Origin: Gammaproteobacteria bacterium
Lineage (GTDB): Bacteria > Pseudomonadota > Gammaproteobacteria > Thiohalomonadales > Thiohalomonadaceae
Direction of reading: 5' to 3'
Length of the DNA: 64,000 nucleotides
Assembly (NCBI GenBank): GCA_024709225.1
Contig: JANJXC010000073.1
Coordinates: 55,877 to 119,876, forward strand
In this document: positions 14,721-64,000 of the stretch, piece after piece
How the letters are laid out: every line of letters starts with the position of its first letter
How positions within the stretch are numbered: the first letter of the stretch is position 1
Position numbers and translations under genes: made by a program
Notes under the pieces: generated by a model
What the model was told of the DNA's origin: nothing
The model's input: only the letters and a program-made list of their open reading frames with translations
Database searches by the model: none

Positions 14721-14735
14721 GCGGAGAAACGCTTG

Positions 14736-16175
14736 ATGAATTTCGTGATGCCCGATTTCATGCCCGCCCTGCCCGAGATGTTCCTGCTCGGCATGGTCTG
14801 CTTCATCCTGTTGCTGGACCTGTTTCTCAGTGAACGCAGCCGCGTGGTCACCTATCTGCTGGCCCAGTCCACCCTGCTCGGTGCGCTGCTGCTCACGGTG
14901 AGTCTGTATGAAGAGGGCAGGGCGCTGACCTTCAGCGACACCTTCGTCCATGACCCCATGGGCTCGGTGCTCAAGGTGTTCATCTACCTGGCCACCTTCC
15001 TGGTGTTCCTCTACGCCAAGGACTATCTGCGCGCGCGCAACATGTTCAAGGGCGAGTTCTATGTCCTCGGCCTGTTCGGCGTGCTGGGCATGAACGTGCT
15101 GGTGTCGGCGCACAGCCTGCTTACCATTTACCTGGGCCTGGAGCTGCTGTCGCTGTCCATGTATGCCATGGTGGCCTTGCAGCGCGATTCCGTGCAGGCC
15201 TCCGAGGCGGCGATGAAGTATTTCGTGCTCGGCGCCATGGCCTCGGCAATGCTGCTGTACGGCATGTCCATGCTGTACGGCATCACCGGCAGCCTGGACC
15301 TTGGCCAGATCAACACCAGCACGGCGGCCATGGACAATAACTCCATGCTGCTGGCCTTCGCCCTGGTATTCATCGTCATCGGTGTGGCCTTCAAGCTCGG
15401 CGCGGTGCCGTTCCACATGTGGTTGCCCGACGTTTATCACGGCGCACCGACTGCAGTGACCCTGTATCTGAGTTCCGCGCCCAAGTTGGCCGCCTTCGCC
15501 ATGATGATGCGTCTGCTGGTGGACGGCCTGGGCGGTCTGCAGGAGCAGTGGGAGGGCATGCTGATCCTGCTCACCGTGCTGTCGCTGGCTGCCGGCAACA
15601 TCATCGCCATCGCCCAGACCAACCTGAAGCGCATGCTGGCCTATTCCGCCATCTCCCACGTCGGTTTCCTACTGCTCGGCGTATTGTCGGGTACCCAGGC
15701 CGGTTATGCCGCCGCCATGTTTTACGCCATTGTGTACGTGATCATGGGGCTGGGCGGTTTCGGTATGATCGTGCTGATGAGCCGCGCCGGCTTCGAGGCG
15801 GACAGCATCGAGGACTTCAAGGGGCTCAACGAGCGCAGCCCGTGGTTCGCCCTGATGATGCTGATCCTGATGTTCTCCATGGCCGGCGTGCCGCCGTTCC
15901 TCGGTTTCTGGTCCAAGTTGGCGGTGATACAGGCCGCCCTCGGCGCCGATCTGGTGTGGCTGGTCGCCGTGGCGGTGGTGTTCTCGGTGATTGGTGCGTT
16001 CTACTACCTGCGTGTGGTCAAGGTGATGTACTTCGACAAGGCCGACGTGGGTGCGCCCACGGTGAGCGCCGGTTTCGACCTGCGCGTGGTGTTGAGCGCC
16101 AACAGCCTGGCCGTGCTGGGCCTGGGCTTGTTCCCTGGCAGCCTGCTGGCGCTGTGCGTGGCGGCGCTGGCGTAG
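14736..16175 (+). CDS. nuoN: NADH-quinone oxidoreductase subunit N
   Basis: [38 protein letters not shown] at 14736 preferred over TTG at 14733. Confidence 0.96.
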
Positions 16176-16191: not shown

Positions 16192-16294
16192 GTTTCGAGT
16201 TCGGAGTTTCGAGTTTCGAACGGCGCGTCCCTTGACCCGGCAGTGCCGATAATCGAAACTTCGGGTCCGAAACTCGAAACTCGAAACTCGAAAC
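16192..16294. repeat. Heptamer locus A: inverted pair of 7-bp arrays, (GTTTCGA-type)x4, 33-nt core, (TCGAAAC-type)x6
   Basis: Left units GTTTCGA GTTCGGA GTTTCGA GTTTCGA (16192-16219); core 16220-16252; right units TCGAAAC TTCGGGT CCGAAAC TCGAAAC TCGAAAC TCGAAAC (16253-16294). Confidence 0.93.
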
Positions 16295-16301
16295 TGATCC
16301 C

Positions 16302-16610
16302 ATGCTTCCAGCCCTGACCCTGATTCTCATCGCCGTGGTTGCCGCTAACCTGCCCTGGTTGAGCGATCGTGTCCTGCTGGTGCGGCGTGCCGGCGAGCAG
16401 GGGAAGGGGGCGTGGTGGCGCTGGCTGGAGTGGCTGCTGCTGTATTTCGTCGTGGGCGGCCTGGCCCTGGGCCTGGAAAACAAGCTCAACGGCGAGGTCT
16501 ATCCCCAGGCCTGGGAGTTCTATGCCGTCACCCTCTGTCTGTTCCTGGTCTTTGCCTTGCCTGGGTTTATCTATCGTTACGAATTCAAGCGCTTACTGGA
16601 ACGGCGTTGA
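16302..16610 (+). CDS. DUF2818-type small membrane protein
   Basis: MLPALTLILIAVVAANLPWLSDR, WWRWLEWLLLYFVVGGLALGLENKLNG; position after nuoN typical of the family. Confidence 0.75.
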   Translation: MLPALTLILIAVVAANLPWLSDRVLLVRRAGEQGKGAWWRWLEWLLLYFVVGGLALGLENKLNGEVYPQAWEFYAVTLCLFLVFALPGFIYRYEFKRLLERR

Positions 16611-39400: not shown

Positions 39401-40124
39401 CGATGCGCTCGGCACGGGTCAGGGCCAGATCGACGATGTTGCGATACTGGTGCAACTGCGCCAGTTCGCCTTCGGTCAGGCGGCGCTGGCGGGCGATGGC
39501 GGAGCCGATAATGGCGCGCTCGCGGCCGGCGTATTCGCTGACCGTGAACAGGGCCTCCTTCATCACCGGATTGGGCATGTAGGAGTACATATTGCCCGGC
39601 AGCGGCACCATGCAGGCGCGGCGCACGTCGGCCAGTGCCTCGATATGCGCGCTGGCCAGGGCGATCCAGGTTTCGGCGTCACCGGGCAGCTGACCCTGGT
39701 CGATGAGGGTACGGGTGGCCTCCAGTTCGCCGCGGCTGCGCGCCAGGTCGTGCAGGGCCAGGGTGAGCGGGTGGTTGGGGGGCAGGTTGTGGATGGCTTG
39801 GGCGCCGTCCAGCAGGCGCTGATACTGCGTGTCGACGTCCTGGCGCTGGCGCGCCATTTCCTGCTGCATCTCGGTCTGCGGGCCGGGGCTGGCGAGCAGG
39901 GCGGCGGTGATGCCGCGCTCCATGGCCATCACGGCACTGGCGCGCAGGGACAGGTCGGCGAGGTGATTGGTCTGCTCGATCCAGGTGACCGCGTGCAGCT
40001 TCTCGCGCGCCTCGCGGAACTCCCACAGACTACCCGCCAGAATCAGCAGGCCGAGCAGGGCCAGCAGCGTGATGAGCAGGCGGCGTATGGACATTGGCAT
40101 CCCCATATCCCGGCGATCATCCAT
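36444..40124 (-). CDS. NIT-like sensor, HAMP, PAS, PAS, GGDEF, EAL, C-terminal degenerate REC protein
   Basis: AMERGITAALL; RGHDTVARYGGDEF; VEALARW; C-terminal ISNQRLPDMSGIDFFKRV receiver-like. Confidence 0.9.
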   Translation of the reverse strand: MDDRRDMGMPMSIRRLLITLLALLGLLILAGSLWEFREAREKLHAVTWIEQTNHLADLSLRASAVMAMERGITAALLASPGPQTEMQQEMARQRQDVDTQYQRLLDGAQAIHNLPPNHPLTLALHDLARSRGELEATRTLIDQGQLPGDAETWIALASAHIEALADVRRACMVPLPGNMYSYMPNPVMKEALFTVSEYAGRERAIIGSAIARQRRLTEGELAQLHQYRNIVDLALTRAERIVRQFPASRELTLASANVTSVFLARYEEVRQQVYAASRSGEPYAIDATLWYNEATQAIDTIIALSEAMSSHLRRDIAQLRHKAMLDTTLLILALLITATVFFLVVRSIRRRILAPLQRLEAAADTISKGNLNQPLPSFQNDELGHLATAFERMRLTLLEDLRQREADAARLRIFSLALEQSADSMIITDSDRTIEYVNAAFERIRGFRRTQVLGKNAAIFKSELNDPVLYQRFHEALSHGEIFRATLTNCRADGTPYYEEVAISPVRDSHGAITHYISSGKDVTERIRTEAELRKLSQAIEHSVSGVVITNPQGLIEYVNPQFTRTTGYTADEVRGGKLSILKSGRTSAERYRELWGTITQGKVWEGELINKRKNGELYWELISISPVRNEQGAITHYVGLQHDISERKKLEEQINFFAYYDELTQLPNRNLLTQRFSQAVASRRDDTLLAVMSLDLSRFKLINDSLGHRIGDAVLRTIAKRLNQVARGHDTVARYGGDEFVVLLPDVQHADDVSAVAQRMIDAVALPIELEGHELRLALHIGISLMPQDGEDLGTLLRNAATALHQAAREGRNHFRFYTEELNAVAAARLSLEHALRRALEQNELELHYQPKVDLATGHIVGVEALARWCHPTEGWISPQRFIPVAEETGLIQALGEWALREACRQNRRWQTAGLPPITIAVNLSAHQLRQPSLVAAVTRVLEETALEPRYLELELTESAVMESPEATAEVLQQLKALGLSLAVDDFGTGYSSLSHLGRFPFDTLKIDRSFVTHITTAPDQATIAMTIIAMAESLRLTVVAEGVETEAQAVYLRDKGCDLLQGYLFSRPLPAAELAQLLQEGRTLHLPQRDSTRETKTLLLLEDRRNILSALQRLFQHAGYHLLAASTTQEAFNLLALHGAGVIISNQRLPDMSGIDFFKRVKSIYPETIRIVLSGHGDLEQVGQAVTDGVIHKYFSQPWDDDELREQVRKAFGLYRTLQAKVTD

Positions 40125-47468: not shown

Positions 47469-49433
47469 CTAAAGCTGATACTCCAGGGCAAGCTTGGACT
47501 GCAGTTTGCGCGCCTGGCGAAACGCCTCCTTCAGGATGCGTCGATCCAGTTCGTTCAAGGTATCCGGATCGACGTGGTTGGACAGCGGCTGTCCCTGCTC
47601 TGACTGTCGCCGGTGTACGCGTACACGCAGCAGCTGGATGAAGTGATAGGACTCGGCCCAGGCCTCCACATCGGCCGGATTGAGTGCCTTGGCGGCAGCG
47701 GCGGCGCGCAGCCGCTCGACGGTGTTGGTGGCGGCGATGCCGTGGGCAATGGCGGTGATGCGTGCGGCATCCACGAACGGTGCCAGACCGTGCAGTTTGA
47801 GATCGATGCTGTGCGGGTGCTTGCCGCCGCTGGATACCTTGAAGTCGCCGAACAGTCCCAGCGGCGGACGGTTACGCAGGGCGTTCTCCGCCATCTGGCG
47901 GCGGAAGCGGCTGTTGGGTTCGACGCGCTTGAGCATCCACACGCGCAGTTCCTCCACCGGCGCCGGCTCGCCGTAGAGCGAACGGAAATCGAAATAGATG
48001 GAGGCGTTGAGCAGGTGCTGCGGGGTGCCCTGATCGATCCAGCGGCTGAAGCGGTTCTGCCACTCCTCCATGCTCAGGCAGCACTCCGGGTTGCTGGCCA
48101 TGATGTTGCCCGGGCAGAGCGGGAAGCCGACCATCGCCAGGGCGTCGTTGATGCGCTTGGCGATGGGCAGCAGTTCGGCGCGTACCTCGTCGGTAGTCTT
48201 GCTGGCCGGGGTGCGGAACAGGATGCCGTTGTCCTGATCGGTCTTCAGGGTCTGCTCGCTGCGGCCCTCGCTGCCGAAGGCAAGCCAGGTGAAGTCCACC
48301 GTCGGCTTGCCGGTCTCGGTGAGCACCAGGGTGATGGCGCGCTGGGTGAGGCTGTCGTTGAGGGTGGTGATGATCTCGGTGATCTGATCCACCGAGGCGC
48401 CCTGGGCCAGCATCTGTTCCACCAGGCGGTGCACGTTGCTGCCCAGCTGGGCCAGTTGCTCGATGCTGTCGGCGCGGGCGATGGAGCGCGACAGGTTGAC
48501 CAGGCCGATGCGCTGCAGCGAGAACAGGTCGCGCTCCGACACCACGCCGGCCAGTTTGCCGTCCTTGACCACGCAGATGTGACCGAAGCCGTGCTGCGCC
48601 ATCAGCAGCGCCGCCTCGTAGGCGCGCGCCTGCGGCGGCAGCGACAGCGGCGCGGGGCTCATCAGCTCTGCCATCGGCGTGGTCGGGCTGCGCTGCGGCA
48701 GCGCCACGCGCGACAGCACGTCGTGCAGGGTGAACATGCCGATGGGGGCCTGGGCGGGGTCGGTGACCACGATGCTGCCGATGTGCTCGCGATCCATGAT
48801 CGCCAGCGCCTCGCCTACCGGGGTGGTGGCGGTGCAGCTGATGGGGGCGCGCTGGATCAGGCTCTGCAGCGGCGAGCTGAGCGAGGTGTCTTCGGAGACG
48901 CGGGTGGCCGAGTTGGCCTGCACCGTGCGCAGGGCGTTGTCCAGCAGGTTGGCCAAGCGGCGGGTGCAGAAGTCGTGGAATACCGGGCTCTGACTGAACA
49001 GCTTGTCGAAGTCCTCCCGCTCCAGCTCGAAGCAGAAGGTGTCCTCCACCGCGCGGTTGATGGTGCGTACCGGGCGGCGCGAGAGCAGGGCGCCGATGGG
49101 GAAGCTTTCGCCGGTCACCAGTTCCCAGGCGCCTTCGTCGTCGGGCTCGTCCTTGCCCAGCTCGCCGCGGATGCGGCCCTGCTTGATAATAAAAAAGCGG
49201 CTGGCCGGACCGTCCTCGGGACGGGTGACGGCTTCACCGCGGGCGTAAAAACCGAGTTTCAGGCGCTTGGCCAGATAGTCCAGATGCGCCGGCGCCATCT
49301 GGTCGAACGGCGCATGCTGCCGCAGGAAGTCCAGGATGGGGGCTAGGGGCTGATGGGTGGCTATCTGGTTCAACGCTGTCCTTCCACGTGCGCACGTGAG
49401 ATTTGGCGAATCAGATAGCAATCGCCGTACCAT
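47469..49433 (-). CDS. Second cNMP-binding/CBS/DUF294 protein
   Basis: FDQMAPAHLDYLAKRL N-terminus; CBS pair; FGSEGRSEQTLKTDQDNGILF; start may be downstream of 49433. Confidence 0.86.
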   Translation of the reverse strand: MVRRLLSDSPNLTCARGRTALNQIATHQPLAPILDFLRQHAPFDQMAPAHLDYLAKRLKLGFYARGEAVTRPEDGPASRFFIIKQGRIRGELGKDEPDDEGAWELVTGESFPIGALLSRRPVRTINRAVEDTFCFELEREDFDKLFSQSPVFHDFCTRRLANLLDNALRTVQANSATRVSEDTSLSSPLQSLIQRAPISCTATTPVGEALAIMDREHIGSIVVTDPAQAPIGMFTLHDVLSRVALPQRSPTTPMAELMSPAPLSLPPQARAYEAALLMAQHGFGHICVVKDGKLAGVVSERDLFSLQRIGLVNLSRSIARADSIEQLAQLGSNVHRLVEQMLAQGASVDQITEIITTLNDSLTQRAITLVLTETGKPTVDFTWLAFGSEGRSEQTLKTDQDNGILFRTPASKTTDEVRAELLPIAKRINDALAMVGFPLCPGNIMASNPECCLSMEEWQNRFSRWIDQGTPQHLLNASIYFDFRSLYGEPAPVEELRVWMLKRVEPNSRFRRQMAENALRNRPPLGLFGDFKVSSGGKHPHSIDLKLHGLAPFVDAARITAIAHGIAATNTVERLRAAAAAKALNPADVEAWAESYHFIQLLRVRVHRRQSEQGQPLSNHVDPDTLNELDRRILKEAFRQARKLQSKLALEYQL

Positions 49434-49531: not shown

Positions 49532-49540
49532 AGAAAGGCG

Positions 49541-49605
49541 GTTTCAAGTTACAAGTGGTAAGTTGCAAGAAAAGGCAGTTTCAAGTTTCAAGTTGCAAGT
49601 TACAA
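49541..49605. repeat. Heptamer locus E-left: two 4-unit arrays of GTTNCAA-type repeats separated by 9 nt
   Basis: GTTTCAA GTTACAA GTGGTAA GTTGCAA / gaaaaggca / GTTTCAA GTTTCAA GTTGCAA GTTACAA. Confidence 0.9.
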
Positions 49606-49628
49606 GATAAAGACAAACACTCTTGTCA

Positions 49629-49768
49629 TCCTTAGTCCTTAGTCCTTAGTCCTTAGTCCTTAGTCCTTAGTCCTTAGTCCTTAGTCCCTAGTCCCTAGTC
49701 CCTAGTCCCTAGTCCCTAGTCCCTAGTCCCTAGTCCCTAGTCCCTAGTCCCTAGTCCCTAGTCCCTAG
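49629..49768. repeat. Heptamer locus E-right: (TCCTTAG)8(TCCCTAG)12
   Basis: 20 consecutive 7-bp units read directly; overlaps the stop codon of the PilZ gene. Confidence 0.98.
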
Positions 49769-50517
49769 TCCCTGCTTCTCCTCCGTTCCAGCTCGATGCG
49801 GTGGATGTAGCGCAGGATGGCGGCGTTGCTGCGGGAGTCCAGTTGCAGCAGGCGGCAGCCAACACGGTAGACCGGTTCGCCGTGCTCGCTGCCGACCTGG
49901 TAGCGGTTGCGGATCTCGACGTCGGCGTGGATCACGCCCTCCTCGGGAAGCTCGATGCGGCAGTTGGGAACCACGGTGCCCGCGTCCCAGCCGCACTGCC
50001 GTCCCTCCGGCGGCTCGATGATGCCGACGCCGCCGACGCTGATGTCGACGATATGGGCGTGGATCATGCTGCCGTCAACGCCGACCAGACTGAGGTTGAG
50101 GTGACGGCCGATGGGAGGGGCGAGGCGGTAGTACTCGCGCCGCTGGATGCGGATGATGGAGGCGGGCAGGGGAACGACGAAGACCGGCGCGCCCTGATAG
50201 GTACCCTTTTGCAGCGTCTTGCTGTCGAACTGGACACGCACCTGGTTGTGGCGGGTGACGAACAGGGCGTGGCGGGCATCGAGCAGGCGCTGGTTGAGCG
50301 TATCGTCCGGGCCGTAATCAAGCACCAGGCGGTTGTTTTCATCGTCCAGGCGCAGGGCCGAGGTAAGGATAAAGTCGCGGCCCTCGTTGAAGTAGACGGT
50401 GATCAGCTGCAGGGTGCGGGTGAGGTCGTTGAGCACGCGCACGATCTCCGCACGGGAGTCCACCCGAAAACGTTCCAGATCAGCAACTCCGTCGCTGTGC
50501 ATGTCATCGGCGCTCAT
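49765..50517 (-). CDS. PilZ-domain flagellar-brake-like protein
   Basis: YcgR-like N-domain and PilZ: RREYYRLAPPIGRHLNLSLVG...HIVDISVGGVGII. Confidence 0.82.
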   Translation of the reverse strand: MSADDMHSDGVADLERFRVDSRAEIVRVLNDLTRTLQLITVYFNEGRDFILTSALRLDDENNRLVLDYGPDDTLNQRLLDARHALFVTRHNQVRVQFDSKTLQKGTYQGAPVFVVPLPASIIRIQRREYYRLAPPIGRHLNLSLVGVDGSMIHAHIVDISVGGVGIIEPPEGRQCGWDAGTVVPNCRIELPEEGVIHADVEIRNRYQVGSEHGEPVYRVGCRLLQLDSRSNAAILRYIHRIELERRRSRD

Positions 50518-52008: not shown

Positions 52009-52029
52009 AGTCGAAGTCCTTACAAATAA

Positions 52030-52122
52030 TTCAAAATTCAAAATTTAAGGTTCAAGGTTCAAGGTTCAAGAGCGAGTCAGCCTAAAATTTGCCGTCATTA
52101 ATCTTGAATTTTGAATCTTGAA
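52030..52122. repeat. Heptamer locus B: inverted arrays (TTCAARR)x6, 30-nt core, (TYTTGAA)x3
   Basis: TTCAAAA TTCAAAA TTTAAGG TTCAAGG TTCAAGG TTCAAGA (52030-52071); TCTTGAA TTTTGAA TCTTGAA (52102-52122). Confidence 0.93.
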
Positions 52123-53466
52123 TTAGGTTTTCAATCTCGGCAGGCCCAGCTTCTGGCGCCGCTCCCACAGGGTCTTACGGCTGATGCCGAGATGGCGCGC
52201 CAGGTCGGTTTCCGTCATCTGCCCCTCATTCTCACGCACGAAGCGGCGGAAGTAGTCATCCAGGGACAGGGCTTCATCGCTGCCGACGGTTGCGGGGCTA
52301 TCCTGCCCGTTGCCGGGTGGGTTGTCGATAGCCAGCAGCTGCGCGGTGATCTGTGGCCCGTCGGCGAGAATAACCGCACGCTCGATGACGTTTTCCAGTT
52401 CACGCACGTTGCCGGGCCAGCTGTGATGCAGCAGGCGCTCCATGGCCTCCGCCGTGAAGGTCATGGGCGGGCGGTTGAGGCGCTGGCGGGTCTTGTCCAG
52501 CAGCACCTCGGCCAGCTGGCGGATATCCTCGCCGCGCTCACGCAGCGGGGCGAGACGGATCTCCATCACATGCAGTCGATAGTACAGGTCGCCGCGAAAG
52601 GTGCCGTCGTTGACGCATTGCTGCAGGTCGCGGTGGGTGGCGGCGATGAGGCGCACGTTGACCTTGCGTGATTGGGTGGAGCCGACGCGGCGGATCTCGC
52701 CCTCCTGGATCACGCGCAGCAGCCGCGCCTGTGCCTCCAGCGGCAGCTCACCGATTTCATCCAGGAACAGGGTGCCGCCGTCGGCCGCCTCGACCAGGCC
52801 GCGGTGGGTGCCCACCGCGCCGGTGAAGGCGCCTTTCTCGTGGCCGAACAGTTCCGACTCGATGAGTCCGGCGGGAATGGCGGCGCAGTTGACGGCGATG
52901 ATCGGTGCGTCGCGGCGCATGCTTTGTTCGTGCACTGCACGCGCCACCAGCTCCTTGCCGGTGCCCGATTCGCCCAGGATCAGCACCGTGGTATCGGTAG
53001 GCGCCACCTTGCGGATGCGCTCGAACACCTCCTGCATGGCTGGGCAGCAGCCGATCATGCCGCCGGCGGGGTAGGCGCGTGAGATGTCCTGCTTGAGCAC
53101 GGCATTCTGTCGCTCCAGCGTGCTCTGCTTGAGGATGCGCTCCACGGTGAGCAGCATCTCGTCGTGATCGAAGGGTTTGGCGATGTAGTCCACCGCGCCC
53201 ATCTGCATCGACTCCACCGCCGAGCGTACGCTGGCATAGCTGGTCATCACCAGCACCGGTACACCCTGTGCCTTGTGTATGACCGCCGTGCCCGGTTCGC
53301 CCGGCAGGCGCAGGTCGGTGATGATCAGGTCGAAGTCGGGCAGGGCGTGCTGTTCCGCTTCGGCCACCGAACCGGCCTCGGTCACGTGATAGCCGGCACG
53401 CTGCAACAGGCGGCGCAGCGAGGCGCGGATCACGGCTTCGTCTTCGATGATAAGAATCTGACTCAT
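52123..53466 (-). CDS. Sigma54-dependent NtrC-family response regulator
   Basis: REC IITDLRLPG; GESGTGKELVARAVH; GAFTGA loop; Fis-type HTH C-terminus. Confidence 0.93.
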   Translation of the reverse strand: MSQILIIEDEAVIRASLRRLLQRAGYHVTEAGSVAEAEQHALPDFDLIITDLRLPGEPGTAVIHKAQGVPVLVMTSYASVRSAVESMQMGAVDYIAKPFDHDEMLLTVERILKQSTLERQNAVLKQDISRAYPAGGMIGCCPAMQEVFERIRKVAPTDTTVLILGESGTGKELVARAVHEQSMRRDAPIIAVNCAAIPAGLIESELFGHEKGAFTGAVGTHRGLVEAADGGTLFLDEIGELPLEAQARLLRVIQEGEIRRVGSTQSRKVNVRLIAATHRDLQQCVNDGTFRGDLYYRLHVMEIRLAPLRERGEDIRQLAEVLLDKTRQRLNRPPMTFTAEAMERLLHHSWPGNVRELENVIERAVILADGPQITAQLLAIDNPPGNGQDSPATVGSDEALSLDDYFRRFVRENEGQMTETDLARHLGISRKTLWERRQKLGLPRLKT

Positions 53467-53477
53467 GGCTTTGCCTG

Positions 53478-53549
53478 GTAGGAGCGAATCGTATTCGCGA
53501 CCGATATGCCTCTGCCCGGCGCGGTATCGCGGACACGGTCCGCTCCTAC
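53478..53549. repeat. BIME between response regulator and kinase genes
   Basis: GTAGGAGCGAATCGTATTCGCGA...GCGGACACGGTCCGCTCCTAC. Confidence 0.9.
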
Positions 53550-53566
53550 GGGTGCATGTCGTTCGT

Positions 53567-56500
53567 TCATTCGCCGATTCCTTCCTTCTTTTCCTCGTCC
53601 CTCGTCCCTCGTATCTCGTACCTCGATACGGGCAGGCGCAGGATTACCGAGGTGCCTTCGCCGGGGCGGCTGCGCAGGGTGACGCTGCCGGCGTGCTCGG
53701 CGACGATGTTGTAGACCATGGGCAGGCCGAGGCCGGTGCCTTCGCCCGGCTGCTTGGTGGTGAAGAAGGGCTCGAACACCTGATCCTGCAGTTCCTCCGC
53801 GATGCCGCGGCCGTAATCGGTCACCACCACCTCGATGAAGTTGCCGTCATTGCGTCCGTTGACGATGACGCGGTCACCCGGCTGCGAGGCATCACAGGCA
53901 TTGGTGAGCAGGTTGACGAACACCTGGATCATGCGCTGGTGATCGCCGTGCAGGACCAGATCGGCCTCGCAGCGATTGCTGAACTCGATCTGCTTGCCGG
54001 CCTGGGACAGGCGCACCAGACGCATGGCGTCCTCGATGCAGGCGTGCAGGTTGAACGGTGCCGGGGTGTGGTCCACTGCCGTGCCGCTGTGGCTGAAGCT
54101 GACCAGCGAGTGCACGATGTTGGTGATGCGCCGCGTCTGTTCCAGGATCTGTTCGATGCTCTCCTCGACGAAGGCCGGGTCGCCCTTGTCGTACAGCACG
54201 TTCTGCGCCAGGCAGGCGATGCCGGTGACCGGATTGCCGATCTCGTGGGCCACGCCGGCGGCGAGGCGGCCGATGGAGGCGAGGCGTTCGCTGTGCGCCA
54301 GTTCCGACTCCAGCATGTGCAGGTCGGTGAGGTCTTCGATGAGGATCACCGTGCCGCCGCTGTGGGGGCGGCGCAGGGCGGCATCGATGCCGGCGGGGTC
54401 TTCGATGGCGGCCTTGTGCAGGTTGAACACACGGGCACGGCCTTCGCTGTTCACCTTCACCTTGCGCAGGTGGCGGTCCTGGGTGCGCAGGAAGCCGTTG
54501 AACAGCCCGGCCCAGGGGTCGGGCAGTTCACGCAGCGGGCGGCCGACGGTCTGGTAGTCCTCCAGGCCGGAGAGGGCGGCCATGGCCTGATTCCAGGAGA
54601 TCACTTCCAGCTCCGGGCTGACGGCGCAGACGCCCAGCGGCAGGTCGAGCAGCACCTGGCGGTGGTAGCGGCGCAGGTTGTCCAGTTCGGCGGCGAGGCC
54701 GCGCAGCTGCGAGCGCGACTCCTCCAGCCGCTGTTCGACGAAGCGCACGCTGGCGGCGAGGGCGTTGCGGGTGGTGGTGTCGGTGCGCAGGCGCTCGTCG
54801 ACGATCATGCGCGCCAGCAGCGGGCCCACCAGGCCGGACAGGTTGCGCTCGATGCGCTCGCGCAGGCGGCGCAGTTCGGTCTGCCGCTCCTCGTCCGCCT
54901 CCAGGCCGAGGTCGGCCAGGGCCTGCGCCACTTCGCGTTCGGCCATCTCCGCGCCGGTGATCTGGGCCAGCTGCTCCTTGAACTGGGCCGGCGAGATGGC
55001 CAGCGGCACGCCGGTGGGCGGGGTCATGCTTTCCTTGCAGCAGGCCCGCGCCGCCTCCTGTTCGTCCTCGCTCGCCCGGGTGATGAGGGAGATGCCCGCA
55101 AACAGCAGGCCGTTCACCGCCAGGGTCCAGAAGGTGGCGTGACTCCACGGCTGGCCCTCCACCTGGCCCCAGCCGGTGAGCCAGCCGAGCGAGGCGGGCA
55201 GGATGCCGGAGCGTTCCAGCAGCGGCAGTACCAGCAGCACCGCCCATACCGTGCCGCCACCCAGTAGGCCGCTGATGAAGCCGAGGCGGGTGGCGCGGCG
55301 CCAGTACAGCAGGCCGATGATGCCGGGCAGGAACTGCGCCACGGCGACGAAGGAGATCAGGCCCAGCTGTACCAGGCCCTGGTTGTGTTCCAGCAGCAGA
55401 TAGAAGCCGTAACCGGCGAGGATGATGATGGTGATCAGCACGCGGCGGCCCCACAGCAGCCAGCGGTAGATATCGGTGTCCGGCGACAATCGCGGCGGGA
55501 AGCTGGCCGGCAGCACCAGGTGATTCATGCACATGGAGGCCAGGGCCAGGGTTTCCACGATCATCATGGCGCTGGCGGCGGAGACGCCGCCGAGAAAGGT
55601 GAGCACCGGCAGGATGGGGCTGTTGCCGAACAGCGTGATGCCGAGAACGTAATAGTCCGGCGAGGCCTGCGGCGTCAGGTGCTGGCCGGCCCACAGGATG
55701 GGCGGAATGGCCAGATTGAGCAGCAGCAGAAACAGGGGAAAGGCCCACGCAGCGAAGTTCAGCGTGCGCGGCTCGATGTTCTCGGTAAAGGTCATGTGGA
55801 ACTGGCGCGGCAGCAGGAAGGCGGCGGCGAAGGCCAGCAGCAGCAGGGTGGCCCACGGTCCCTCGCGCACCGGCTGGTACAGCCTGTTCAACGCCTCCGG
55901 ATGGGCCGCCAGCCAGGTCTCCATGTCGCCGAAGCCGCCGAACACGCCGTAAACGGCGAACAGCCCCACCGCCAGCAGCGCCAGCAGCTTGATCAGCGAC
56001 TCGAAGGCGATGGCCACCACCAGGCCTTCGTGTTTCTCGCGCGCCGAACTGTGGCGCGCGCCGAACAGCACGGCGAACAGGATCAGGGTGAGGCAGAAAC
56101 CCAGGGCCAGGAACAGCTGCGGCGTGGTGTCCTGGGTCAGCACCTGCAGCGACTCGGTCACCGCGCGCACCTGCAGGGCCAGATAGGGCAGGATGCCGGC
56201 GAGCATGAACAGGGTCACCAGCACACCGGCCAACTGGCTTTGGTAGCGGAAGGCAAACACGTCGGCCAGCGAGGCCAGCTGATACTCCCGCGTCAGGCGC
56301 AGGATCGGCTTCAGCAGCACCGGCGTGAGCAGAAAGGCCAGGGTGACGCCGAGGTAGATGGTGAGGAAGTTGTAGCCCTGCGCCTGGGCAAAGCCGACGC
56401 TGCCGTAAAAGCTCCACGAGGTGGCATACACCCCGAGCGACAGGGTGTAGGTGAGCGGGTGGCGCGCCAGCTTCGTCGGCAGCCAGCCGCGCTCGGCGGC

Positions 56501-56803: not shown

Positions 56804-56807
56804 AGTC

Positions 56808-57095
56808 GTAGGAGCGGATGGTATCCGCGCTACCGTGCCGCAGCCGGGTCCGGCAGGTCGCGAATGCGATAAAGGGTTCGTAGGAGCGGATGGTATCCGC
56901 GCTACCACGCCGCGGCGGGGCCCGGCAGGTCGCGAATGCGATAAAGGGGGCGTAGGAGCGGATGGTATCCGCGCTACCGTGCCGCGGCGGGGCCCGGTAG
57001 GTCGCGAATGCAATAAAGGGGTCGTAGGAGCGGATGGTATCCGCGATACAGCGCTAGTCGGAGCTCGCTAGGTCGCGAATACGATTCGCTCCTAC
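56808..57095. repeat. 72-bp tandem REP array (4 units) closed by one complete inverted REP
   Basis: GTAGGAGCGGATGGTATCCGC at 56808, 56880, 56952, 57024; final TCGCGAATACGATTCGCTCCTAC. Confidence 0.95.
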
Positions 57096-57979: not shown

Positions 57980-57983
57980 CAGA

Positions 57984-58070
57984 TTCAACATTCAAAATTG
58001 AAAATTCAAGATTGTAGATTCACAGGCGGACAACGCCGGCCTTATCGAATTTTGAATCTTGAATCTTGAA
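57984..58070. repeat. Heptamer locus C: inverted arrays (TTCAANA-type)x6, short GC-rich core, (TCTTGAA-type)x3-4
   Basis: TTCAACA TTCAAAA TTGAAAA TTCAAGA TTGTAGA TTCACAG (57984-58025); TATCGAA TTTTGAA TCTTGAA TCTTGAA (58043-58070). Confidence 0.88.
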
Positions 58071-58071
58071 T

Positions 58072-59226: not shown

Positions 59227-59504
59227 GAGCGAATACCATTCGCTCCTACAAGTGATGGGGCGGTAGGAGCGGATGGTATCCGCGATGCTGCGCCGGGAGG
59301 GCCCCGGCAGTTCGCGAATACCATTCGCTCCAACAAGTGATGGGGCGGTAGGAGCGGATGGCATCCGCGACGCAGCGCCGGGAGGGCCGCGGCAGTTCGC
59401 GAATACCATTCGCTCCAACAAGTGATGGGGCCGTAGGAGCGGATGGTATCCGCGATGCAGCGCCGGGAGGGCCGCGGCAGTTCGCGAATACCATTCGCTC
59501 CTGC
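59223..59504. repeat. REP cluster: one perfect palindromic REP pair plus three 85-bp tandem BIMEs
   Basis: GTAGGAGCGAAT-ACC-ATTCGCTCCTAC at 59223-59249; GTAG heads at 59263, 59348, 59433. Confidence 0.95.
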
Positions 59505-59561: not shown

Positions 59562-60308
59562 TCAACCCATCTGCTTTTCGCGGATTTCGTCCAGCGTCTT
59601 GCAGTCGATGCACAGGGTGGCGGTGGGACGCGCCTCCAGGCGGCGGATACCGATCTCTACGCCGCAGGAGTCGCAGTAGCCGTATTCGTCCTTGTCCAGC
59701 TTGTCCATCGCCTCGTCGATCTTCTTGATCAGCTTGCGCTCGCGGTCGCGGGTGCGCAGTTCCATGGTGAACTCGGATTCCTGCGTGGCGCGGTCGTTGG
59801 GGTCGGGGAAATTGGCCGCCTCGTCCTGCATGTGGTGCACGGTGCGGTCCACTTCTTCCATCAGCTCGCGCTTCCAGGCGCGCAGAATGTCGCGGAAGTG
59901 CTCCTTCATCGCGTCACTCATGTACTCCTCGCCCTTCTTCTCCTTGTAGGGAGTGAAGGCGCCGAAGCCTTCAACGGAGGACTTGGTCTTCTTGGCCGCC
60001 GGGGCGGTCTTGCTGGCTGCGCTGCTCTTCATGGATGGGGTGCTTTTCTTGCTCGTCGTCGTTTTGGGTTCGGGGGCTGCTTTGGCCGCTTCAGCCTTTT
60101 GCGCCGCAACAGGCTTTTTTTCCGCGACGGTCTTTTTTGCCTCAGCCGGCTTCTTCGCCGGAGCTGCCTTCTTGGTCGCCGCGGGCTTCTTCTCCGGCGC
60201 AGCCTTTTTCGGTGCAGGCGCCTTCTTGGCCGGGGCCGCCTTCTTGGCAGTCGTCGCTTTCTTCGCGGGTGCGGTGGCCTTTTTGGCCGGAGCTTTCTTT
60301 GTTGGCAT
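59562..60308 (-). CDS. dksA: DksA family protein with long Lys/Ala/Pro-rich N-terminal tail
   Basis: C-terminal [39 protein letters not shown] zinc finger; about 110-aa KKAAPAKK tail; ATG at 60308. Confidence 0.92.
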
Positions 60309-61566: not shown

Positions 61567-61829
61567 GGTCGCGAATGCCTTCGCTCCTACAGAACCACGC
61601 AACCACGGGCCCGTAGGAGCGGACCGCGTCCGCGATAAGGCGCTGGGTCCGCCCCGGCGGGGGTCGCGAATACCATTCGCTCCTACAGAACCATGCAACC
61701 ACGGGCCCGTAGGAGCGGACCGAGTCCGCGATAAGGCGCTGGGTGCGCCCCGGCGGGGGTCGCGAATACCATTCGCTCCTACAGAACCACGCAACCACGG
61801 CCCCGTAGGAGCGGACCGCGTCCGCGATG
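61567..61829. repeat. 96-bp tandem BIME array upstream of RAYT
   Basis: Inverted REP 61567-61590; GTAG heads at 61613, 61709, 61805. Confidence 0.94.
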
Positions 61830-61899
61830 AGGCCGCCTATTGGCAGCAAAGTTGTTACTGGGCTATATCAGTAACGCAGTGACACACAGGGAGGTGTCT

Positions 61900-62367
61900 A
61901 TGAACGACGAGGAACGTCGCCCACACGGTCGTGACTTGCGGAAGGGCCGTCACTCTGGCTTTGGGCAAATTTATTTGCTGACTTTGGTTACCTGGCAGCG
62001 TCTACCCGCTTTCTCCGACCTGGCAACCGCGCGCCTGGCCATACAGGCCATGCATTATCACCACAGGCAGGGTGACGTTGTTTCGCTGGCCTATGTACTG
62101 ATGCCTGATCATATGCATTGGTTAATCCAGCTACAGAACGGAACGCTCGCCGGATTGATGCGGCGATTCAAGGGATACTCTGCATTGCAGGTTAACCGCA
62201 TGCGCATGCAATCCGGCAGGTTGTGGCAGCCGGGTTATCATGATCACGCTTTGCGCGAAGAAGAGGACCTGCGGGAAATCTCTCGTTACGTCATCGCCAA
62301 TCCTTTGCGTGCGGGGTTGGTGGAGCGTATCGGCGATTACCCGCATTGGGATGCGGTTTGGTTGTGA
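61900..62367 (+). CDS. REP-associated tyrosine transposase (RAYT, Y1/HUH family)
   Basis: YVLMPDHMHWLIQL HUH motif; GRLWQPGYHDHALREEEDLREISRYVIANPLRAGLV catalytic Tyr region; AGGGAGG RBS; flanked by REPs. Confidence 0.93.
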   Translation: MNDEERRPHGRDLRKGRHSGFGQIYLLTLVTWQRLPAFSDLATARLAIQAMHYHHRQGDVVSLAYVLMPDHMHWLIQLQNGTLAGLMRRFKGYSALQVNRMRMQSGRLWQPGYHDHALREEEDLREISRYVIANPLRAGLVERIGDYPHWDAVWL

Positions 62368-62384: not shown

Positions 62385-62556
62385 TCGCGAATACCATTCG
62401 CTCCTACCCGGCTCGGTAGGAGCGGACCGCGTCCGCGATAAGGCGTCCGGGGCAGCCCCAGAGGTCGCCAATGCCATTCGCCCCTACCCGGCATGGGTAG
62501 GAGCGGACCGTGTCCGCGATGACGCAGTGGCTGGCAGGAGCGCGTCGTATTCGCGA
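62385..62556. repeat. REP/BIME cluster downstream of RAYT
   Basis: Inverted REP 62385-62407; BIME 62416-62487; single REPs near 62497 and 62534. Confidence 0.9.
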
Positions 62557-63866: not shown

Positions 63867-64000
63867 CCTCAGTCCCCAGTCCTCAGTCCCCAGTCCTCAG
63901 TCCCCAGTCCCCAGTCCCCAGTCCCCAGTCCCCAGTCCCCAGTCCCCAGTCCCCAGTCCCCAGTCCCCAGCCCCCAGCCCCCAGCCCCCAGCCCCCAGCC
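63867..64000. repeat. Heptamer locus D: 19 units CCTCAGT/CCCCAGT, then (CCCCAGT)9, then (CCCCAGC)5, truncated by window end
   Basis: Read directly; left arm GGACTGAGGACT is the reverse complement of the array start. Confidence 0.97.

Follow-up and report, generated by a model that had tools for sequence, protein, structure and literature searches.

Tandem arrays of heptamers have been described in several bacteria. In Xanthomonas they form convergent pairs of the unit GGGAATC, 70 and 75 per genome, which have been attributed to G-quadruplexes (Rehm et al. 2015, PMC4692102). These repeats are approximately 90% intergenic and sit beside the 5' neighbouring ORF, their pairs are always convergent and are rare between divergent genes, their length varies between species, and they were reported to be absent from other Gammaproteobacteria; Nostoc carries heptamers of the unit GGGGA(C/T)T (PMC4692102). 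In marine Beggiatoaceae, TAACTGA heptamers occur in 169 direct sets and one inverted set (MacGregor 2015, PMC4679880). They are intergenic and lie just 5' of start codons, where canonical ribosome-binding sites are rare, a placement that they share with the repeats described below, although here inverted pairs are common and the units are different and degenerate. Geobacter metallireducens contains 49 GGACCGG elements of four heptamers each, which are dispersed multicopy tandem heptamers as ours are; the part of PMC2700814 that we draw on gives them as direct repeats, found also within genes, and describes no convergent partner arm, in which they differ from the pairs reported here. Exact-string literature searches for the heptamers of this study returned nothing relevant.

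Within the window (the whole 64,000-nt stretch of DNA that was analysed), convergent heptamers lie at the junction of nuoN, which encodes chain N of NADH:quinone oxidoreductase (14733-16175, + strand; PF00361, Proton_antipo_M, E 1.8e-74; TAG stop codon at 16173-16175), and a downstream DUF2818 gene (16302-16610, + strand; PF10993, E 4e-37). Read on the + strand, the left arm (16192-16219) consists of the heptamers GTTTCGA GTTCGGA GTTTCGA GTTTCGA, which belong to the unit class CGAGTTN (class I), and is followed by a core of 33 nt (16220-16252) that has no second copy in the genome. The right arm (16253-16294) consists of TCGAAAC TTCGGGT CCGAAAC TCGAAAC TCGAAAC TCGAAAC, its unit being the inverse of that of the left arm, and ends 7 nt upstream of the DUF2818 start codon. 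The first-pass annotation had described four GTTTCGA-type units, a 33-nt core and six TCGAAAC-type units, and both units and coordinates are exact in the sequence. The arms form a 30-nt inverted repeat that is 90% complementary, and GACCCG in the core pairs with the CGGGTC of right-arm units 2 and 3. Both arrays were detected by TRF. Seven arrays of period 7 were found in the window, and none of periods 4-6 or 8-11.

That annotation missed that the element belongs to a genome-wide class, further members of which lie in the window. The 14-mer CGAAACTCGAAACT occurs 53 times at approximately 17 loci in the genome, against 0 for its backwards control. A left array is often followed by a core (mostly 2-55 nt as delimited by the array finder) and then by a right array whose unit is the inverse. 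The final sample of pairs covered approximately 2.8 Mb, made up of the element's own genome (G000), the related genomes G001, G002 and G004, and a 75-kb piece of G076, which belongs to another family; the genomes used were mostly drafts. It contained 72 pairs in left-right order and none in right-left order (p ~4e-22 if the pairs are independent, which orthologous copies are not, the pair counts being inflated), and an earlier subset had given 31 against 0.

The arms are also placed in a regular way with respect to genes. Nearly all were intergenic (92/94 in the first subset) and most lay nearer to the gene on the expected side (75/88, p 9e-12, in the same subset); left arms often begin at, or even within, the stop codon of the gene to their left, and right arms typically finish a few nucleotides upstream of the right gene. 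Pairs between divergent genes (7/58, against 243/1251 gaps) are only weakly depleted, on gene calls that outside the window came from a simple codon-usage caller with at least three wrong gene-orientation contexts in G004. Other pairs lie between convergent genes with no start codon nearby. Most cores are unrelated between loci. The nuoN element is a member of a class, found across the genus, of imperfect palindromes with convergent heptamer arms that lie between genes, and it is the arms, not the core, that define it.

Among 369 genomes sampled from the class, 3 contained the strict class I/II pair pattern, namely G000, G001 and G076, with G002 and G004 lying outside this sample. G076 carries AGTTCCA units together with other heptamers. 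All unit classes are present in G000, G002 and G004, those of G001 are almost exclusively class II, and arms are few in G003, a further member of the genus. Class II arrays were also seen in G011 and G013, of the same family, the counts in G011 not being specific because the backwards control also matched often there. The head-to-head strand order prompted us to consider heptamer addition by a reverse transcriptase or telomerase-like enzyme, which was rejected since no RVT_1 match was found in G000-G004, some of which are draft genomes.

These elements resemble the Xanthomonas pairs in their 7-nt unit, convergent inverted order, intergenic position and gene-side preference, and this likeness in layout would favour a G-quadruplex element of the kind proposed for the Xanthomonas and Nostoc heptamers (PMC4692102). 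Two other heptamer arrays of the window are capable of forming G-quadruplexes on the minus strand, a TCCYTAG array at 49629-49773 (approximately 20 copies) and a CAGTCCC array at 63870-64000 (approximately 18 copies, running off the end of the window). However, the units CGAGTTN, CAAGTNN and CAARATT have no G-tracts, and no quadruplex motif is present at 16192-16294 on either strand. Moreover, at the slot at 49374, the quadruplex-capable array of G000 is replaced by CTTGYCA, without G-tracts, in G001 and G004. A quadruplex is refuted for the nuoN locus by the absence of G-tracts, and we regard it as extremely improbable as an explanation of the element. Further differences from Xanthomonas are the presence of several classes per genome, which differ between orthologous slots, and the common 60-nt core of part of the copies. 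Since the layout rules that were tested are common to both and the G-tracts are not, the nuoN-type elements therefore work like the convergent Xanthomonas pairs but are not quadruplex elements.

The units fall into three related classes, CGAGTTN (class I), CAAGTNN (class II) and CAARATT (class III). The outer-stem unit is of the CRARWTT or CAAGTNN type on the left and its reverse complement on the right, and both arms were of the same class in 55 of 56 pairs (mean 34.5 and maximum 45 in within-genome shuffles). The variable NN of CAAGTNN agrees between arms no more often than in shuffles (0.48 against 0.51). A first set (n=18) had hinted at avoidance of matching (0.35 vs 0.46), which was not borne out by the set of n=33 (p_low 0.09). 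Neighbouring units of one arm are more alike (0.50) than units of opposite arms (0.25). Because the variable bases are unmatched, neither arm is a recent copy of the other and each evolves alone, and copying from arm to arm by snap-back synthesis was rejected on the same ground. Homogenisation acts within each arm separately, in the way expected of slippage, although the two arms have their class in common. Purine composition was uninformative as a marker of orientation.

It could be argued that nothing more than neutral slippage is at work, with a preference for 7 nt (the idea, cited in PMC4679880, that this period reflects polymerase contact), so that arrays arise wherever they are tolerated and pairs are chance neighbours. 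The independent homogenisation of the arms and the several unit sequences within one genome are as such slippage would have them, and period 7 dominates, with 30 arrays in 442 kb of G000 against at most 5 for any period outside the multiples of 7. However, neutral slippage explains neither the 72:0 strand order nor the concordance of class in 55 of 56 pairs, nor the joint difference in class of both arms at a slot. It is thus disfavoured as the sole cause, in which role we consider it unlikely; slippage together with a separate origin of the palindromes remains.

The turnover of classes at orthologous positions is seen at several slots of the window. A second slot with the same class of element, at 49534-49773, has left arms of AGTTNCA (class II) followed by the 20-copy TCCYTAG array; at this slot (49374) three species have related left arms and cores, and the right array is TCCYTAG in G000, CTTGYCA in 45 copies in G001 and CTTGYCA in 4 copies in G004. 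The heptamer-armed hairpin at 52028-52123 has class III arms (AATTCAA / TTGAATT), and its slot (52009) has class I arms in G004 and another repeat, without such arms, in G001. A further heptamer-armed hairpin with class III arms lies at 57983-58071, in a slot (57992) that has class I in G004 and a class II left arm in G001. At 40095, the counterpart of an armed hairpin in G004 is a GTAGGAGCGG repeat in G000. Orthologous gaps variously hold different classes, other palindromes, or nothing. Inverted arms that are not heptameric, of the CGCAAAGACGCAAAGG and CGCAAATAAACGCGAATGGACG types, occur at G001:C1 ~1184567-1184744 and G002:C17:43548-44022, where relatives have heptamer arms. Other repeats were also observed. 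A CCTCGTA heptamer array at 53593-53625 of the window lies inside a predicted gene, a long ORF (53465-55267) without a Pfam match, and repeats with a period of 18 nt at 60143-60263 lie in a gene and possibly encode the Lys/Ala-rich tail of a histone-H1-like protein. A 6-kb region of G004 (G004:C59:244682-250578), with few genes called, contains many GGGTTCA/GGTTCAA heptamer arrays and a long CCTGACC/CCTGAAC array.

One core does recur. It is an imperfect palindrome of approximately 60 nt, GAATGAACTCGCTGCGC...GCGCACTCATCC (for example at G000:C51:20878-20944), of which there are 34 copies in G000, 17 in G001, 38 in G002, 43 in G004 and 1 in G003; none were found in G011 or G013. Most copies in hand are flanked by heptamer-type arms with several units, including CTAGGGA and CGAGGGA; when the flanks of 28 copies were scored, the strict pattern was present on the left in 15, on the right in 12 and on both sides in 7, the remainder being assigned by eye. 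Such copies fit the REP/BIME, REPIN (PMC3116915) and ERIC elements, which are likewise imperfect palindromes of short length, dispersed between genes and able to fold in mRNA. An outer stem of tandem heptamers subject to slippage sets our elements apart from these, as do their mostly unrelated loops. A conserved palindrome in many copies, which defines a REPIN, is seen in the 60-nt core, whereas at the nuoN element only the arms recur. A classical MITE with one conserved sequence was rejected, the nuoN core being single copy and most cores unrelated.

The palindromes may instead be non-autonomous elements of a REPIN or MITE kind that are moved by a Y1 (RAYT) transposase, with the heptamers as part of their ends. 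The 60-nt core with its heptamer flanks, the class-matched arms and the presence of Y1_Tnp genes in every member of the genus would fit such mobilisation. Against it, the majority of cores are unrelated, which would not be expected if whole elements were simply copied and pasted, and G003 has four Y1_Tnp matches but a single core copy. Since Y1/RAYT genes are present also in G003, where arms are few, no mobilising enzyme is linked to the class. At the one Y1_Tnp locus that was read, the RAYT-like gene of the window (61975-62292, + strand), the surrounding repeats are of another kind, GTAGGAGCGG. We therefore consider this explanation improbable. The GTAGGAGCGG...CCGCG palindromic repeats, many of them around this gene and partly in tandem (56805-57049, 59229-59501, 60611, 61567-61833 and 62416-62497), resemble the GTAG-tagged REP superfamily in their GTAG start, as that superfamily is presented in PMC3733652.

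The history of the nuoN locus can be followed among the relatives. The element is present at the nuoN-DUF2818 junction in G000, G001, G002 and G004, with a largely conserved core and with arms that are 7 or 14 nt longer or shorter from one congener to another. It is absent from G003, which has a gap of 23 nt at this junction, and from some other members of the family or class, which have gaps of 5-6 nt. The first-pass annotation had raised presence or absence among strains as a check, and relatives do differ, both in presence, as the absence from G003 shows, and in copy number, as the steps of 7 nt show. The pattern that it named as refuting, an identical sequence conserved across all relatives other than as a repeat, was not seen. 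From its presence in four congeners, and not in G003 or the relatives with short gaps, the element was most likely gained at the operon junction after the split from G003. An alignment of the four sequences contains 29 pairs, two of which have changed in both partners (GACCCG/CGGGTC, for example, is GACCGG/CCGGTC in G001). At four sequences, this covariation is suggestive only.

The RNA of 16192-16294 is predicted to fold at -60.8 kcal/mol (z = -6.1), none of 200 shuffles being as good, so that the single long stem proposed for the transcript on first reading is possible. The core hairpin proposed with it, CGGCA-G-TGCCG, cannot stand as written, with its loop of 1 nt. A CGGC-AGT-GCCG hairpin can form (-3.7 kcal/mol), but as a conserved feature it was rejected, since it is unused in the fold of the whole element and is abolished by a change in G004 (CGACAGTGCCG). 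The suggestion of termination also fell away: an intrinsic terminator, with a GC-rich stem and then a T-run, was rejected because the element has no T-run and the scanner gave no terminator-like site there. A promoter in the core was rejected as well, TTGACC and GATAAT being just 10 nt apart and the promoter scan giving none. Rfam, at gathering score, gave no match at the element and only two tRNAs in the whole window.

As the junction is codirectional and without a terminator, the nuoN element is likely read through in the mRNA as a long stem. Of 23 starts that adjoin arms, 3 have a Shine-Dalgarno-like motif, against 527 of 1256 other starts (p 0.005), and the DUF2818 start is among those without one, because the right arm fills that region. 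These observations would also suit an array of binding sites for a Csp/S1-like protein with affinity for single strands or RNA, of the kind proposed for the TAACTGA repeats, that controls translation from the ribosome-binding site position, and one cold-shock protein per heptamer has been reported (cited in PMC4679880). However, a single slot can carry any of three sequence classes, and pairs occur also between convergent genes, far from any start codon. A binding array thus appears very unlikely.

On balance we lean towards the view that these elements are a dispersed, slippage-prone class of palindromes which is read through in mRNA and displaces the ribosome-binding site, with a role that can be proposed only by analogy. 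Each arm gains and loses whole 7-nt units, in the manner of replication slippage, orthologous slots carry palindromes of different classes with the two arms differing jointly, and arms beside start codons occupy the place of the Shine-Dalgarno motif. New copies, at least those with the common core of approximately 60 nt, presumably spread as palindromes, and the nuo-DUF2818 transcript would carry the element as a long non-terminating stem. REP and ERIC hairpins have been proposed to shield mRNA from 3'-5' decay. As is thought for REP/BIME/ERIC, the element could lower or separately set the translation of DUF2818 and affect the stability of the mRNA, and it may protect the nuo transcript from this decay. 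Such benefit as there is would probably be weak, and the nuoN element may equally be nearly neutral.

A more far-reaching possibility, which we hold to be doubtful, is that intergenic segments are flanked on each side with convergent 7-nt repeats by a previously unrecognised bacterial process that needs neither G-quadruplexes nor reverse transcriptase. Such a process could convert both arms to another unit without moving the element and, in some copies, without altering its core. If this were true, the heptamers of Xanthomonas and Nostoc, and perhaps those of Geobacter and Beggiatoa, would be outputs of the same process. Heptamers are an odd favourite among the longer tandem repeats of bacteria, and their best-studied case has been explained by G-quadruplexes. 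The elements described here have the same layout, strand order and gene-side preference with units that are incapable of forming quadruplexes, and the cause is therefore to be sought in the palindrome, in its spread, or in slippage. With four closely related genomes in which different unit classes prevail, that cause is open to testing.
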